Below are positions 3,860 to 60,453 of a stretch of DNA of 64,000 nucleotides, one piece after another. The translations under genes were made by a program, and so were the position numbers. The stretch's first letter is position 1. Every line of letters begins with the position of its first letter. Source of the stretch: Chromatiales bacterium (lineage in GTDB: Bacteria > Pseudomonadota > Gammaproteobacteria > SpSt-1174); contig JABURS010000043.1 of assembly GCA_014762505.1 (NCBI GenBank), forward strand, positions 1-64,000. Direction: 5' to 3'. Under the pieces are notes generated by a model, which saw only the letters and a program-made list of their open reading frames with translations, was not told where the DNA came from and did not search any database.

Positions 3860-5587
3860 ATGGATACGACTTCGATGGAAAAACTGCTCGCCCCCGGCTG
3901 GGTGGAGGCGGCGGGGCATCGTCGCTGGTGGCTGGCCGCCGTGGTCGTGGTGTTGCTGCTGGCGGCGGCCGGTCTGGTCTACGCAACGGGGGGCACCCGT
4001 TACGCCTATCTCCACCTGATGTATGTGCCGATCATTCTCGCAGCCGTCGTCTTCGGCGTGCGGGGCGGGATACTCGCCGGCCTGGTGGCCGGTTTGCTCG
4101 TCGGCCCCTTCATGCCGATACACGTGGAGAGCGGGCTGCAGCAGTCGCTGGTGAACTGGCTCTCGCGCATGGCGGCGTTTGTCGGTATCGGCGCCTTCGC
4201 CGGCTGGCTTGCGGGGCGCCTGCTGCGCGAGGTGCGTCGCCTGCGCTGGGCGATGACGCATGACATGGACACGGGGCTCGCCAATCGGCGGGCGCTGTCG
4301 CAGGACCTGCGGCCGCTGCTGGTAAGCGAGGCCGACGGCCAGGGCGTGTACCTGATGGTGCTGCGCCTGGAGAATCTCACCGAGATCCTGAACACCCTGG
4401 GTTATCCGGTCGGCAACAGCCTGTTGCGCAACGTGGCGCAACGACTGCGGGACAGCCTGCCCCAGGTGACACGCGTCTACCACGTCAGCGGCAACCGCCT
4501 GGCGGCACTGATCCCGGTGGAGGGCGACACCTCGCATCCGGGGGTGCTGGCCGAGCAGGTGCTGCGTGCCATGCGTACCTCGTTTCCGGCCGGCGGCCTC
4601 AACGTGCATGCGGCCGTGAGCGTGGGCATGGCGCACCTGCACGATGCGGAGGGCGATCCGGATGCGCTCATCCGCCGCGCCGATATCGCCCTGTATTCCG
4701 GGCAGCACCGGGGCATGCGCTATGCGCTCTATGACATCCACACCGACCGCACCAGCCGCGCGAATCTCGCCCTGATGGGTGAGCTGCTGGGGGCCATACG
4801 CGACAATCACCTGCAGCTCCATTACCAGCCAAAGCTCAACCTGCGGACGGGTGAGATCGACGGGGTGGAGGCACTGGTGCGCTGGCGTCACCCCTCGCGC
4901 GGGATGGTGCCGCCGGGCGATTTCATCGGCAACGTGGAGAACACCGATCTGATCTCGCCGCTGTCGCGCTGGGTGGTGGAGGAGGCGATTGCGCAACAGG
5001 CCCGCTGGCAGGCGGCGGGGTTCTGCCTCGACATGGCGGTGAATGTCTCGGTGAAGAACCTGCACAACGAGTGGCTGCTCGGGGTGATCGATGAGACCCT
5101 GAAGGCGCATGGGCTGGCACCCGACACCCTGCAGCTGGAGGTGACGGAATCGGCGATCATGGAGGATGCCGACACCGTGATCGACTGCCTGCGCGGCGTA
5201 CGCAGCCGGGGCATGGGTCTGTCCATCGACGACTTCGGTACGGGTTATTCCTCGCTGTCCTATCTGCACGAGATCCCGGCGGACACCGTGAAGATCGATC
5301 GTTCCTTCGTCTCGCGCATGCTGGAGAACCGCCGCATCGGCCGTATCGTCGAGTCGACGATTGCGCTGTCGCACTATCTCAACATGCAGGTGGTGGCCGA
5401 GGGCGTGGAGAGCCAGGCGGAGCTGGATGCCCTGGCCGCGCACGGCTGTGATACGGCCCAGGGGTTCTTCGTGGCGCGGCCGATGGAGGCCCGGGCGTTG
5501 GAACAGTGGCTCCAGGCGGCCGCCTGGCCCAGGCCCGCCAACCTGGCACGGGTGCAACAGGTGTGGACACCGCGCGTCGAGTCCTGA
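3860..5587 (+). CDS. Membrane EAL phosphodiesterase with degenerate GGDEF domain
   Basis: 575 residues. The N-terminal part (about 25-120) has several hydrophobic helices. A GGDEF-fold domain follows (about 130-290), but its active-site loop reads SGNRL near residue 210 instead of GGDEF, so cyclase activity is unlikely. The EAL domain (about 315-560) looks intact: EALVRW near 337, IDDFGTGYSSLSYL, DTVKIDRSF and VVAEGVES. It should therefore hydrolyse c-di-GMP, with the degenerate domain perhaps as a GTP or regulatory module. It stands alone and ends at a strong bidirectional terminator. Confidence 0.88.
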   Translation: MDTTSMEKLLAPGWVEAAGHRRWWLAAVVVVLLLAAAGLVYATGGTRYAYLHLMYVPIILAAVVFGVRGGILAGLVAGLLVGPFMPIHVESGLQQSLVNWLSRMAAFVGIGAFAGWLAGRLLREVRRLRWAMTHDMDTGLANRRALSQDLRPLLVSEADGQGVYLMVLRLENLTEILNTLGYPVGNSLLRNVAQRLRDSLPQVTRVYHVSGNRLAALIPVEGDTSHPGVLAEQVLRAMRTSFPAGGLNVHAAVSVGMAHLHDAEGDPDALIRRADIALYSGQHRGMRYALYDIHTDRTSRANLALMGELLGAIRDNHLQLHYQPKLNLRTGEIDGVEALVRWRHPSRGMVPPGDFIGNVENTDLISPLSRWVVEEAIAQQARWQAAGFCLDMAVNVSVKNLHNEWLLGVIDETLKAHGLAPDTLQLEVTESAIMEDADTVIDCLRGVRSRGMGLSIDDFGTGYSSLSYLHEIPADTVKIDRSFVSRMLENRRIGRIVESTIALSHYLNMQVVAEGVESQAELDALAAHGCDTAQGFFVARPMEARALEQWLQAAAWPRPANLARVQQVWTPRVES

Positions 5588-5679: not shown

Positions 5680-6078
5680 TCAGTCGTCCAGCGTCATCAG
5701 CGGGTAGACGCCGTTCTCGTCGTGCGTCTCGGGGCCCACCACCGGCGGGTTGAAGACGCAGATCATGCGCATGTCCTTGCGCGCACGCAGGTAGTGGCGC
5801 TCGTGGCCATTCAGCGCGTACAGGGTGCCGTCGCTGATCTGGGTGGTGACGCCGTTGTCGAGGTCCTCGATCTCGCCTTCACCCGCCACGCAGTACACGG
5901 CCTCGAGGTGGTTGGCGTAGTGGATGTAGGTCTCGGTGCCGGCACGGATGATGGTGTCGTGCATGGAGAAGCCCATGCCGTCGCCGGCCAGCAGCAGACG
6001 ACGGCTGACCCAGTTGCCGTTCTCGGCCTCGACGTCGCGGTCGGTACCAATGATCTCGTTCAGGCGTCGAATGATCAC
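5680..6078 (-). CDS. ectC: L-ectoine synthase
   Basis: 132 residues, the usual EctC length. It closes N-gamma-acetyl-diaminobutyrate to ectoine, the last step of synthesis of this compatible solute. Cupin-type motifs are visible: YIHYANHLEAVYCVAGEGEI (metal-binding Glu/His region), DGTLYALNGHERHYLRA and RMICVFNPPVVGPETHDENG. Its ATG overlaps the ectB stop by four bases (ATGA). It is the last gene of ectABC. No ectD hydroxylase or dedicated aspartokinase follows. Confidence 0.97.
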   Translation of the reverse strand: MIIRRLNEIIGTDRDVEAENGNWVSRRLLLAGDGMGFSMHDTIIRAGTETYIHYANHLEAVYCVAGEGEIEDLDNGVTTQISDGTLYALNGHERHYLRARKDMRMICVFNPPVVGPETHDENGVYPLMTLDD

Positions 6079-7346
6079 GCAGCCTCCTTGTCGAATTTGT
6101 CCACGGTGGCCTTCACGGCCTCTTCCAGCAGTTTCAGGCCCTCGGTGAGTTCCTGCTCGCTGATGGTGAGCGGAGCGAGGAACTTGAGCACGTGGTCGCT
6201 GGCACCAGCGGTCTCGGCCAGCAGGCCGCGCAGGAAGCCCTGGTGCGAGACCTCGCTGCAGAAGCCCTCCACCTGGGATTCCAGGCCCCAGATCATGCCG
6301 AGCCCGCGGGCGTCGCAGATGTACTTGGGGTACTTCGCCTGCAGGGCCCTGAAGGCCTCGCCGACGCGCTCGCCCTTGGCGCGGATCTCCTTGCTGAAGT
6401 CGTCGGTCTTCCAGCGTTCGAGCGCGGTGGCGCCGGCGATGAAGGCCAGGCTATTGCCGCGGAAGGTGCCGGTGTGCTCGCCCGGTTCCCACTGGTCGAT
6501 CTCGGGGCGCATCAGCACGATGGACATGGGCAGGCCGGTACCGATGGACTTCGACAGCGTGATGATGTCCGGCTTGATGCCGGCGCGTTCGAAGCTGAAG
6601 AAGTCGCCGGTGCGGCCATTGCCCACCTGGATGTCGTCGATGATGAGCAGGATGTCCTTCTCCTGGCAGAGCTGCGAGAGCTTCTGCAGCCACTTCACGC
6701 TGGCGATGTTGATGCCGCCCTCGCCCTGGATGGTCTCGACGATGACCGCCGCCGGCAGGTCGAAGCCGGAGCTGCCGTCCTCCAGGTAGTGACGCATCAT
6801 GTCCACGCTGTCCATGTCGTGGTCGAAGTAGTTGTCGTAGGGCAGCTTGTTGACGTTGAGCGGCACGCCGTAATAGTTGTCGTGATAGAACTCGTTGCCG
6901 GTCACCGCCAGTGCGCCCAGGGTGTGGCCATGATAGGCGTTGGTGAAGGCGATGACGTTGGAGCGCTCCTTCACCTTGCGCGCGAGCTTGAGCGCGGTTT
7001 CCACCGCGTTGGTGCCGGTGGGGCCGACAAACTGGATCTTGTACTCCATGTCGCGCGGCTTGAGGATGGTCTCCTGGAAGGCGACGATGAAGTCGTGCTT
7101 GGCCTTGGTGGCCTTGTCCAGCGCGTTGGTGATGCCGTCGTTCTGGATGTACTCGATCAGCGCGGCCTTCACCGCCGGGTCGTTATGCCCGTAGTTGAGC
7201 GAACCGGCGCCACCGAAGAAGTCGATGTAGGCCTTGCCCTTGTCGTCCATGATGGTGGCGTTGGTCGCGGTGGTGAAGATGGTCGGGAACGAGCGGATGT
7301 AACCGCGCACGTTCGACTCGTATTGTTCGAAAATTCCGATGTCCAT
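6075..7346 (-). CDS. ectB: Diaminobutyrate--2-oxoglutarate transaminase
   Basis: 423 residues, class-III PLP aminotransferase. It converts aspartate semialdehyde and glutamate to 2,4-diaminobutyrate, the first committed step of ectoine synthesis. Visible signatures are DFFGGAGSLNYGHNDPAVK, the PLP phosphate region GPTGTNAVETALKLARKVK, IIDDIQVGNGRTGDFFSFE and the PLP-lysine segment ITLSKSIGTGLPMS. It lies 16 bases after ectA and overlaps ectC. Confidence 0.97.
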   Translation of the reverse strand: MDIGIFEQYESNVRGYIRSFPTIFTTATNATIMDDKGKAYIDFFGGAGSLNYGHNDPAVKAALIEYIQNDGITNALDKATKAKHDFIVAFQETILKPRDMEYKIQFVGPTGTNAVETALKLARKVKERSNVIAFTNAYHGHTLGALAVTGNEFYHDNYYGVPLNVNKLPYDNYFDHDMDSVDMMRHYLEDGSSGFDLPAAVIVETIQGEGGINIASVKWLQKLSQLCQEKDILLIIDDIQVGNGRTGDFFSFERAGIKPDIITLSKSIGTGLPMSIVLMRPEIDQWEPGEHTGTFRGNSLAFIAGATALERWKTDDFSKEIRAKGERVGEAFRALQAKYPKYICDARGLGMIWGLESQVEGFCSEVSHQGFLRGLLAETAGASDHVLKFLAPLTISEQELTEGLKLLEEAVKATVDKFDKEAA

Positions 7347-7362: not shown

Positions 7363-7839
7363 TTATTTCAAATTCATCGAATACAGTAGTTCGGGTTCGT
7401 GCGAGGCGCCCAGGTGGTCCTCGGTGAGGTAGGGCTGCGTCTCGAGCGTGGTACCGAGGCGTTCGGCCCAGCGCTGGAACAGGGCCTGCGAGGCCTTGTT
7501 CGAGGGCGAGATCGTGAGCTCGATGCGCCGGATCTCGCTGAAGAAGGGGCGTTGCTCGTATGCCTGCAGCATGGCCGAGGCCACACCCTGCCCGCGCGCG
7601 CTGGCGTCCACGCCGATCTGCCAGACGAACAGGGTGTCGGGCCGGGCAGGCAGGCGGTAGGCGGAGACGAAGCCGATGAGCTGGCCGTCGCGTTCGGCGA
7701 CCACGCAGGTATCGCGGAAGTGGTCGGCCAGCAGGAAGTAGAGATAGGCCGAGTTGAGGTCCAGGGTCTTGCTGTCCCGGATGAGCTGATGGATCGACTT
7801 GCCGTCCTCTTTGGACGGCGGTCTGTAGGTGATGGTCAT
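7363..7839 (-). CDS. ectA: Diaminobutyrate acetyltransferase
   Basis: 158-residue GNAT protein that acetylates 2,4-diaminobutyrate with acetyl-CoA. The acetyl-CoA motif region is VDASARGQGVASAMLQAYE, and LDLNSAYLYFLLADHFRDTC is typical of EctA. It is the first gene of ectABC. A long structured leader lies between its start and the putative promoter (see the RNA at 7870-7977), so expression may be controlled in the leader as well as by transcription. Confidence 0.96.
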   Translation of the reverse strand: MTITYRPPSKEDGKSIHQLIRDSKTLDLNSAYLYFLLADHFRDTCVVAERDGQLIGFVSAYRLPARPDTLFVWQIGVDASARGQGVASAMLQAYEQRPFFSEIRRIELTISPSNKASQALFQRWAERLGTTLETQPYLTEDHLGASHEPELLYSMNLK

Positions 7840-7869
7840 GTCGGATGATCTCGTCAGCCGTCGACAGGG

Positions 7870-7977
7870 GGTGTCCCTGCAAATCCCATTATGAATCAGG
7901 CGGCAAGCGCCGGATTGATAGTGGGATTTCGCCCTCGGCTGGAGAGTAGCCCTCCTTTACGGTTTCAGGAAAGCACC
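7870..7977 (-). ncRNA. Structured leader of ectABC, candidate riboswitch
   Basis: Read on the ectA strand, the RNA closes with an interrupted P1: GGUG (7974-7977) with CACC (7870-7873), and CCUG (7966-7969) with CAGG (7876-7879). Inside are a hairpin GGAG-GGCUACU-CUCC (7941-7955) and a long arm AAAUCCCA/UGGGAUUU (7922-7929 with 7881-7888) capped by AAUC-GGCG/CGCC-GAUU. Purine-rich single-stranded joints such as GAAACCGUAAA separate the stems, which is a riboswitch-like layout. It ends about 30 bases before the ectA start. My best guess is the Na+-I (DUF1646) class, which is known upstream of osmolyte genes, but I cannot confirm the consensus by eye. Confidence 0.65.
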
Positions 7978-7979
7978 AA

Positions 7980-7985
7980 AGTATA
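7980..7985 (-). promoter_or_regulatory. ectA: Candidate -10 element for ectABC
   Basis: TATACT on the minus strand differs from TATAAT by one base and would start transcription close to the 5' edge of the structured leader. The -35 region (TTGGCC, 18 bases upstream) is weak, so the exact start is uncertain. Confidence 0.4.
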
Positions 7986-8114
7986 CCACAGCCGGCCGGG
8001 GGCGGCCAACGTAACCTGCTGATCAATAAGGAAAACTGGCCGTGAGAGGTGGCGCAACCCCGCATGCGGCAAGGCTTTGCGGGGTGTTTCGGGGTATGGC
8101 GGCGGAGGCGGTGC

Positions 8115-8459
8115 TCAGTTGTCCGCGAGCCGGACGTCGGCCTGGCCGGTGTCGCGGTCGATGCAGAGCAGCACCTCGCAGTACTCGGTGTTCTCGTCCG
8201 TCGGCGTGGGGTCGTCGGCACAGGCGCAGCCGGCGGTGATGCTGGTGTAGAACAGGCCCGCCCGCACGACGATGGCCTCGTCGGTCGCCTGCGTGCCGAT
8301 GATCATCGCGCCGAGCCTGTCGTCGCGCGCGGCGTTGCCCGTGCGCAGGCCCTGTTGCAGGGGGAGTTCGTCCAGGCCGAGCCCCTCCAGGGCCTGCTTC
8401 AGCCGGGTGCCGAAGTCCGGGGTGCCATAGGCCGCCAGGGCGTGCGAGAGGTCGATCAT
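8115..8459 (-). CDS. Conserved hypothetical protein with Cys pair
   Basis: 114 residues, acidic and soluble, no signal peptide or membrane segment. The middle contains VVRAGLFYTSITAGCACADDP with a C-x-C pair, followed by NTEYCEVLLCIDRDTGQA. It looks like a small conserved proteobacterial family without assigned function. It stands alone upstream of the large GGDEF-EAL gene on the same strand, 55 bases apart in the direction of reading. Confidence 0.6.
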   Translation of the reverse strand: MIDLSHALAAYGTPDFGTRLKQALEGLGLDELPLQQGLRTGNAARDDRLGAMIIGTQATDEAIVVRAGLFYTSITAGCACADDPTPTDENTEYCEVLLCIDRDTGQADVRLADN

Positions 8460-37808: not shown

Positions 37809-37868
37809 GTAGCAAGTAGTGAGGCGTTAGTCGTTTTACGCCTATCTTCTCACTCCTCCCTCCTCACG

Positions 37869-37917
37869 CCCCGACAAGAAAAAGGCCGCGCAATGCGCGG
37901 CCTTTTTCTTGTCGGGG
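37869..37917. terminator. Very long perfect bidirectional terminator hairpin
   Basis: A 23-bp uninterrupted stem: CCCCGACAAGAAAAAGGCC plus GCGC, loop AAT, then the exact complement. It contains the GGCC/T-run design of an intrinsic terminator on both strands and separates the convergent paralogue and fccB genes. Confidence 0.9.
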
Positions 37918-37928
37918 AGAGATCCCCG

Positions 37929-45180: not shown

Positions 45181-45336
45181 CGTCAGTCGTGACCACGGGC
45201 CCGCGCCAGCGCAGGTGTCCGTCGGTGCACATCACTCCCTGGTCGTGCCGGGCCGTCCCGGCGTGCTGGCCAAGGCCCCGGGGGTCGTCCCGCGAGGCGC
45301 GTCTTGCCAATACCGGAGCAAATCTCGGGCCAGGCC

Positions 45337-60019: not shown

Positions 60020-60370
60020 TCAGGCGCAGCAGGCCGCGCCCGGGCGGTTGGGCATGGTGGCCAGCGCCTGGCGATCCTCGGCGAAGGGCGCCTGGGTCTT
60101 TACGCCCGCCGCGGTCTGCGTGATCACCCCGTGCACCCAGGCCGGGAGGTCGGGGTGCAGGCGGTAATACACCCAGAGCCCTGCCTTGCGGTCCTGCACG
60201 ATCCCGGCCTTGCGCAGGTTGCCGAGGTGGTGCGAGACCTTGGGCTGGGGCAGGCCGAGGGCGTGGGTGAACTCGCAGACGCAGAGTTCGTCCTGCCCGG
60301 CCAGCAGGACGATGCAGCGCAGCCGTGTTTCATCGGCCAGGGCGCGCAGGTATCGATCAGCGGTTGCCAT
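60020..60370 (-). CDS. arsR: ArsR-family arsenic repressor
   Basis: 116 residues. Winged helix with ADETRLRCIVLLAGQDELCV and LPQPKVSHHLGNLRKAGIV. The As(III)-binding pair is C30-V-C32 in ELCVCEF, as in E. coli ArsR; an additional CC pair (114-115) ends the protein. It is first gene of the leftward ars operon and should autorepress through the dyad at 60385-60416. Arsenite or antimonite would relieve repression. Confidence 0.95.
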   Translation of the reverse strand: MATADRYLRALADETRLRCIVLLAGQDELCVCEFTHALGLPQPKVSHHLGNLRKAGIVQDRKAGLWVYYRLHPDLPAWVHGVITQTAAGVKTQAPFAEDRQALATMPNRPGAACCA

Positions 60371-60373
60371 ACA

Positions 60374-60427
60374 ATATCGACCTTTTTAGATATAGTCTCG
60401 TGCGAGTATATCTAAACTGATCGATAT
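60374..60427. promoter_or_regulatory. Nested palindromic ArsR operator
   Basis: TTTAGATATA (60385-60394) and TATATCTAAA (60407-60416) form a perfect 10-bp dyad, the classical ArsR type. Outside it ATATCGA (60374-60380) pairs with TCGATAT (60421-60427). The inner dyad lies 15 bases before the arsR start, so it overlaps the promoter. Confidence 0.85.
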
Positions 60428-60453
60428 GGCAAGCGTGCCGGCGGGTGAGGGCC

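Follow-up and report, generated by a model that had tools for sequence, protein, structure and literature searches.

The window, a 64,000-nucleotide stretch of a Chromatiales bacterium (contig JABURS010000043.1), carries the ectoine genes on its minus strand, in the order ectA, ectB, ectC. The first gene, ectA, encodes a diaminobutyrate acetyltransferase of the GNAT type (158 aa, 7363-7839, ATG at 7839); its start is supported by the alignments of its homologues, which begin at residue 1. Downstream lie ectB, a class III aminotransferase (6075-7346), and ectC, the ectoine synthase (5680-6078, Pfam Ectoine_synth match). On the other side, the ectA promoter adjoins a minus-strand gene for a 114-aa protein (8115-8459) that is conserved in the sister species and has no Pfam match, and a terminator-like repeat (8057-8085) is located 3' of this gene (8459-8115). 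Two GGDEF-EAL (c-di-GMP) proteins, encoded at 3860-5587 on the plus strand and at 12495-8515 on the minus strand, enclose the ect operon together with one small gene.

A sigma-70-like promoter, TTGGCC-18-TATACT with a TG before the -10 (extended -10), is present upstream of ectA at 7980-8009 on the minus strand. The pattern was found once where 0.1 occurrences are expected by chance, and the promoter is real-looking in its sequence. The sequence-only reading had placed its structured segment just downstream of a candidate -10 box, a position borne out by this extended -10 promoter. Because the promoter lies at 8009-7980, transcription is predicted to start near 7973, giving an inferred ectABC leader of about 133 nt. 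Further upstream, and partly overlapping the -35, a 28-nt block (TTCCTTATTGATCAGCAGGTTACGTTGG, 8006-8033, minus strand) shows 0 mismatches against the sister species and occurs once per genome in both species. This block is a candidate transcription factor site (operator) or UP element for ectABC; searching three genomes of the family with it disclosed no regulon sharing the block. An intrinsic terminator or attenuator in the leader was rejected, since no intrinsic terminator is found within 7780-8200.

Within the leader, about 110 nt 5' of the ectA AUG, there is a near-perfect Shine-Dalgarno sequence, UAAAGGAGG (7951-7959, minus strand), which is identical at 9 of 9 positions in the sister species. 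Its pairing with the anti-Shine-Dalgarno is calculated at -12.1/-11.6 kcal/mol, against -3.0 kcal/mol for the very weak ribosome-binding site of ectA itself and -7.4 for the fair one of ectB. The core AAGGAGG occurs seven times in the 64 kb (both strands), and the chance of finding it in a 140-nt leader is 0.4-1%. Three of the seven occurrences, that of ectC among them, have a start codon 4-6 nt downstream; none is found within 16 nt behind the leader copy. A leader peptide was rejected, because neither species has an ATG, GTG, TTG, CTG, ATT, ATC or ATA at 2-15 nt from this orphan Shine-Dalgarno. The start-less Shine-Dalgarno is the single odd feature in an otherwise ordinary kind of element. 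It is also what is left of the conserved-looking purine-rich joints described previously: this motif is kept, but the remainder is poorly conserved, reading GAGGGCG in the window and GACAGCA in the sister species.

The ectA leader contains a strong, conserved hairpin (P3, 7881-7929, minus strand). Each arm is 22 nt long (7881-7902 and 7908-7929); the two are complementary at 86% of their positions, carry three conserved 1x1 mismatches and enclose a 5-nt loop, and the hairpin occupies about +44 to +92 of the predicted transcript. Folded alone, P3 reaches -20.1 kcal/mol, compared with -8.5 +/- 2.6 for shuffled sequences (z -4.5; 0 of 200). When the 64 kb were scanned for inverted repeats with 22-nt arms, no more than 3 mismatches and a 3-11 nt loop, the matches were the ectA-leader site and one terminator, and first-order random windows (n=60) gave 0 matches at the same mismatch limit. 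Allowing up to 4 mismatches with a short loop yields three sites, namely the ectA leader, 37866-37920 and 60374-60427. The repeat at 37866-37920, long, nearly perfect and bearing A and T tracts, is an intrinsic terminator for both directions; related copies occur elsewhere in the genome. The long near-palindrome at 60365-60430 is A+T-rich, with arms TTGCCATA...TATGGCAA and TTTAGATATA...TATATCTAAA, and does not itself look like an obvious terminator. P3 is single-copy in the genome. A repetitive element (REP/MITE, mobile repeat) was rejected for the leader element on the basis of one copy per genome, and a phage or plasmid origin because the sole match is a 21-nt chance hit.

The element is carried by only one other species, belonging to the same genus, among the three genomes examined in the family. 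Between these two species the hairpin is identical at 47 of 49 positions, and the rest of the leader at about 71%. Changes are rarer in the hairpin (2/49) than in the remaining leader (27/94, Fisher p 0.0003) and than at the four-fold sites of ectA (14/79, p 0.03), so that the hairpin (7881-7929) appears to be under constraint. The sequence-only reading had proposed looking for compensatory changes among the ectA leaders of relatives. Two species could be aligned, and each of the 28 proposed pairs can form in either of them: 26 are invariant, two carry one-sided changes and remain paired as G-U, and none changes on both sides.

The strand opposite P3 folds about as well or better, as expected for a near-palindrome, and folding alone therefore cannot distinguish a functional RNA from a functional DNA. 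The 49-bp inverted repeat could be a DNA operator, at which a dimeric regulator would block transcription downstream of the start, leaving the RNA hairpin incidental; this is judged rather unlikely. Besides the folding of the opposite strand, an operator would fit the two-fold symmetric arms, whose 47/49 conservation includes the mismatches and goes beyond the need of an RNA stem, and the second conserved block at the -35. EctR1/CosR-type control acts on ect promoter DNA. It resembles the situation in the ectA leader in being a local control of ectABC, but the palindrome studied here lies inside the predicted transcript and not in promoter DNA. In a reference listed in PMC5924519, EctR1, a known regulator of ectoine, appears as a transcriptional regulator. 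However, 49 bp is long for such a site and +44 to +92 an unusual place for it, no second half-site occurs in the genome (at most 3 mismatches over 21 nt), and an operator leaves the orphan Shine-Dalgarno unexplained.

Beyond the genus, a covariance model built from the two leaders found nothing in a sample of 369 genomes of the class and 398 of the phylum searched with strict filters, and with the same model the element is absent from 43 other loci with ectA relatives. In the other genome of the family (G001) no close ectA is present; the best match there (E 7e-7) shows 31% identity over residues 34-145. A homologous element in the ectA leaders of Halothiobacillaceae was rejected, as none was found there. 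These leaders (loci L015, L017-L022 and L043; ~1459-1491) harbor a short hairpin of another kind, CCUG-CGCG...CGCG-CAGG, which is highly conserved, lies between promoter and start and shows 0 two-sided changes in 8 sequences. The ectA leader of locus L016 has yet another hairpin, closed by ACUCGG/CCGAGU. The presence of unrelated hairpins without covariation in the leaders of the nearest ectA relatives would be compatible with a passive role, in which P3 either lends stability to the ectABC transcript or serves as the mark of an RNase site, with no regulatory effect. Such a role, also suggested by a strong stem that is independent of partners, is possible though on the whole unlikely: a pure stability stem need not retain its sequence, its mismatches or a start-less Shine-Dalgarno.

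How the remainder of the leader folds around P3 is less clear-cut. According to the sequence-only reading, a 108-base segment (7870-7977) closes on itself. The helix GGUG/CACC does close the isolated 108-mer (z -2.8), but not the full leader, where the state closed by it reaches -49.7 against -55.8 for the best fold, about 6 kcal/mol costlier; these bases are also absent from the sister species, and this closing helix was rejected on both grounds. With regard to the two internal stems of that reading, only the large hairpin is robust; other pairings compete with the small stem, GGAG/CUCC. A small side hairpin (P4, GCAGGG/CCCUGU, 7864-7880, minus strand) differs in sequence in the sister species, and a GGG/CCC stem forms there as well. 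In the window, folding predicts that GCUUUCCU sequesters the orphan Shine-Dalgarno most of the time (P 0.96), a pairing that is not preserved in the sister species. The helix GCUUUCCU/AGGAGGGC was rejected because it is strong in the window and weak in the sister species.

A different closing helix, P1, can be proposed for both species. Its 5' strand, CUCUCCAGCCG, is located at 7936-7946 and its 3' strand, CGGCUGACGAG, at 7850-7860, both on the minus strand; the 3' strand holds the only Shine-Dalgarno-like bases (GAG) near the ectA start. The strands of the two species, summarized as CUCUCCrGCCG and CGGCUGmCGAG, are able to pair around the main hairpin, which would then fall between the orphan Shine-Dalgarno and the ribosome-binding site of ectA. 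The predicted probability of P1 is about 0.5 in the window and 0.83 in the sister species, and consensus folding of the two species closes P1 around the hairpin. Nevertheless, P1 is marginal against chance: 25 of 500 column shuffles are equally good (p ~0.05 by energy), and 79 of 500 by helix length. Competing pairings that would expose or hide the ribosome-binding site are predicted in both species, with the significance of P1 at about 0.05.

A salt-sensing riboswitch had been suggested as a possibility for this leader. The Rfam covariance search gave no credible family match to the leader: no family reaches its gathering score there, none matches the sister locus either, and the sole match at E <= 10 is a chance-level one on the opposite strand inside ectA (7795-7824). 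The search itself works, as it recovers a Guanidine-II riboswitch in the same window (RF01068, 32.6 bits, 45248-45296, minus strand). The latter sits, in a textbook arrangement, immediately upstream of a 1205-aa gene (45180-41563); the product resembles a biotin-dependent urea/guanidine carboxylase, an identity judged by eye.

Na+-I riboswitches (DUF1646 motif, RF03071) are likewise leader RNAs placed before stress genes. The suggestion that they control osmotic-stress genes is right in that some members control osmolyte genes, with dapB, ablA and eam among those named (PMC9337991), but the word ectoine is absent from the main text of that paper. Gene context is the only thing that speaks for a Na+-I riboswitch in the ectA leader. 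Unlike this class, the leader has no match to the covariance model (none to RF03071 at E <= 10), no terminator (though a terminator is just one of the possible expression platforms), and a distribution limited to a single genus; with the cut-off at 40.5 bits, RF03071 scores at best 13.2 bits (E 5.4) in the whole genome, a chance-level hit on another contig. The leader is thus almost certainly not a Na+-I riboswitch, a reading that the Rfam model, as far as it goes, refutes, and salt sensing by the ectA leader is unsupported speculation.

A riboswitch of a new class, other than Na+-I, sensing an ion or an osmolyte would agree with the osmolyte biosynthesis genes downstream, with the precedent of Na+-I control, and with the competing pairings around the Shine-Dalgarno, which would make a suitable expression platform. 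It is nonetheless very improbable. In addition to the missing Rfam family, the element is confined to one genus, whereas riboswitch classes are usually widespread, and its conserved part is mostly helix, with no large conserved unpaired pocket. The sequence-only reading had itself named the joint lack of covariation and of an Rfam match as what would refute it, and, as far as the data allow, neither was found. What stands from it is a structured RNA in the ectABC leader, in the form of the hairpin at 7881-7929; a match to a known riboswitch class and support for salt sensing are both lacking.

The explanation preferred here, though only tentatively and at somewhat less than an even chance, is that the segment forms part of a structured leader, about 133 nt long, at the 5' end of the ectABC mRNA, and that this leader influences the translation of ectA in cis. 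Such a leader would probably be a genus-specific translation control element. Formation of P1 would fold away the approximately 85-100 nt that separate the orphan Shine-Dalgarno from the ectA start, placing the Shine-Dalgarno effectively about 14 nt from the AUG (4 + 10 unpaired nt). From there it may load ribosomes directly or serve as a standby site. Pairing of the Shine-Dalgarno with CUCUCC or CUUUCC would instead hide it, and ectA translation would drop. If any input tips this balance, it might be ions, temperature, a protein or an sRNA. The effective spacing of 14 nt exceeds the ideal, which is a point against this mode of delivery, and the opposite sign is also conceivable, in that P1 would hide the weak GAG and thereby lower translation. 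The fullest version, in which the folded junction carries the start-less Shine-Dalgarno across some 100 nt to the ectA start while intracellular ions or osmolytes shift the fold and so switch on ectoine synthesis at translation, is improbable.

A translational leader of this kind has relatives among known systems. In the phage T4 gene 38-type start, a hairpin brings the Shine-Dalgarno near the AUG. The proposal for the ectA leader likewise joins these two elements across a folded spacer, but this spacer is far longer and a multi-helix junction would be needed. Structured 5' UTRs that rely on Shine-Dalgarno masking or on an upstream standby site (PMC3936740, standby model) also have a structured region that separates a ribosome-binding stretch from the start codon. 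In contrast to these, the upstream stretch of the ectA leader is a full-strength Shine-Dalgarno, whereas hardly any such stretch exists close to the start codon. New here are the conserved start-less Shine-Dalgarno, the very weak ribosome-binding site of ectA and, possibly, the closing helix P1.

The control of ectoine synthesis has been described almost entirely at the level of transcription; a large review from 2018 contains one remark on possible post-transcriptional effects and mentions neither riboswitches nor untranslated regions (PMC5924519). Because the ectA leader is confined to one genus, its general importance is limited. If the reading is true, the orphan Shine-Dalgarno in a conserved leader would nevertheless offer a concrete example, readily open to experiment, of an osmolyte pathway controlled at translation.
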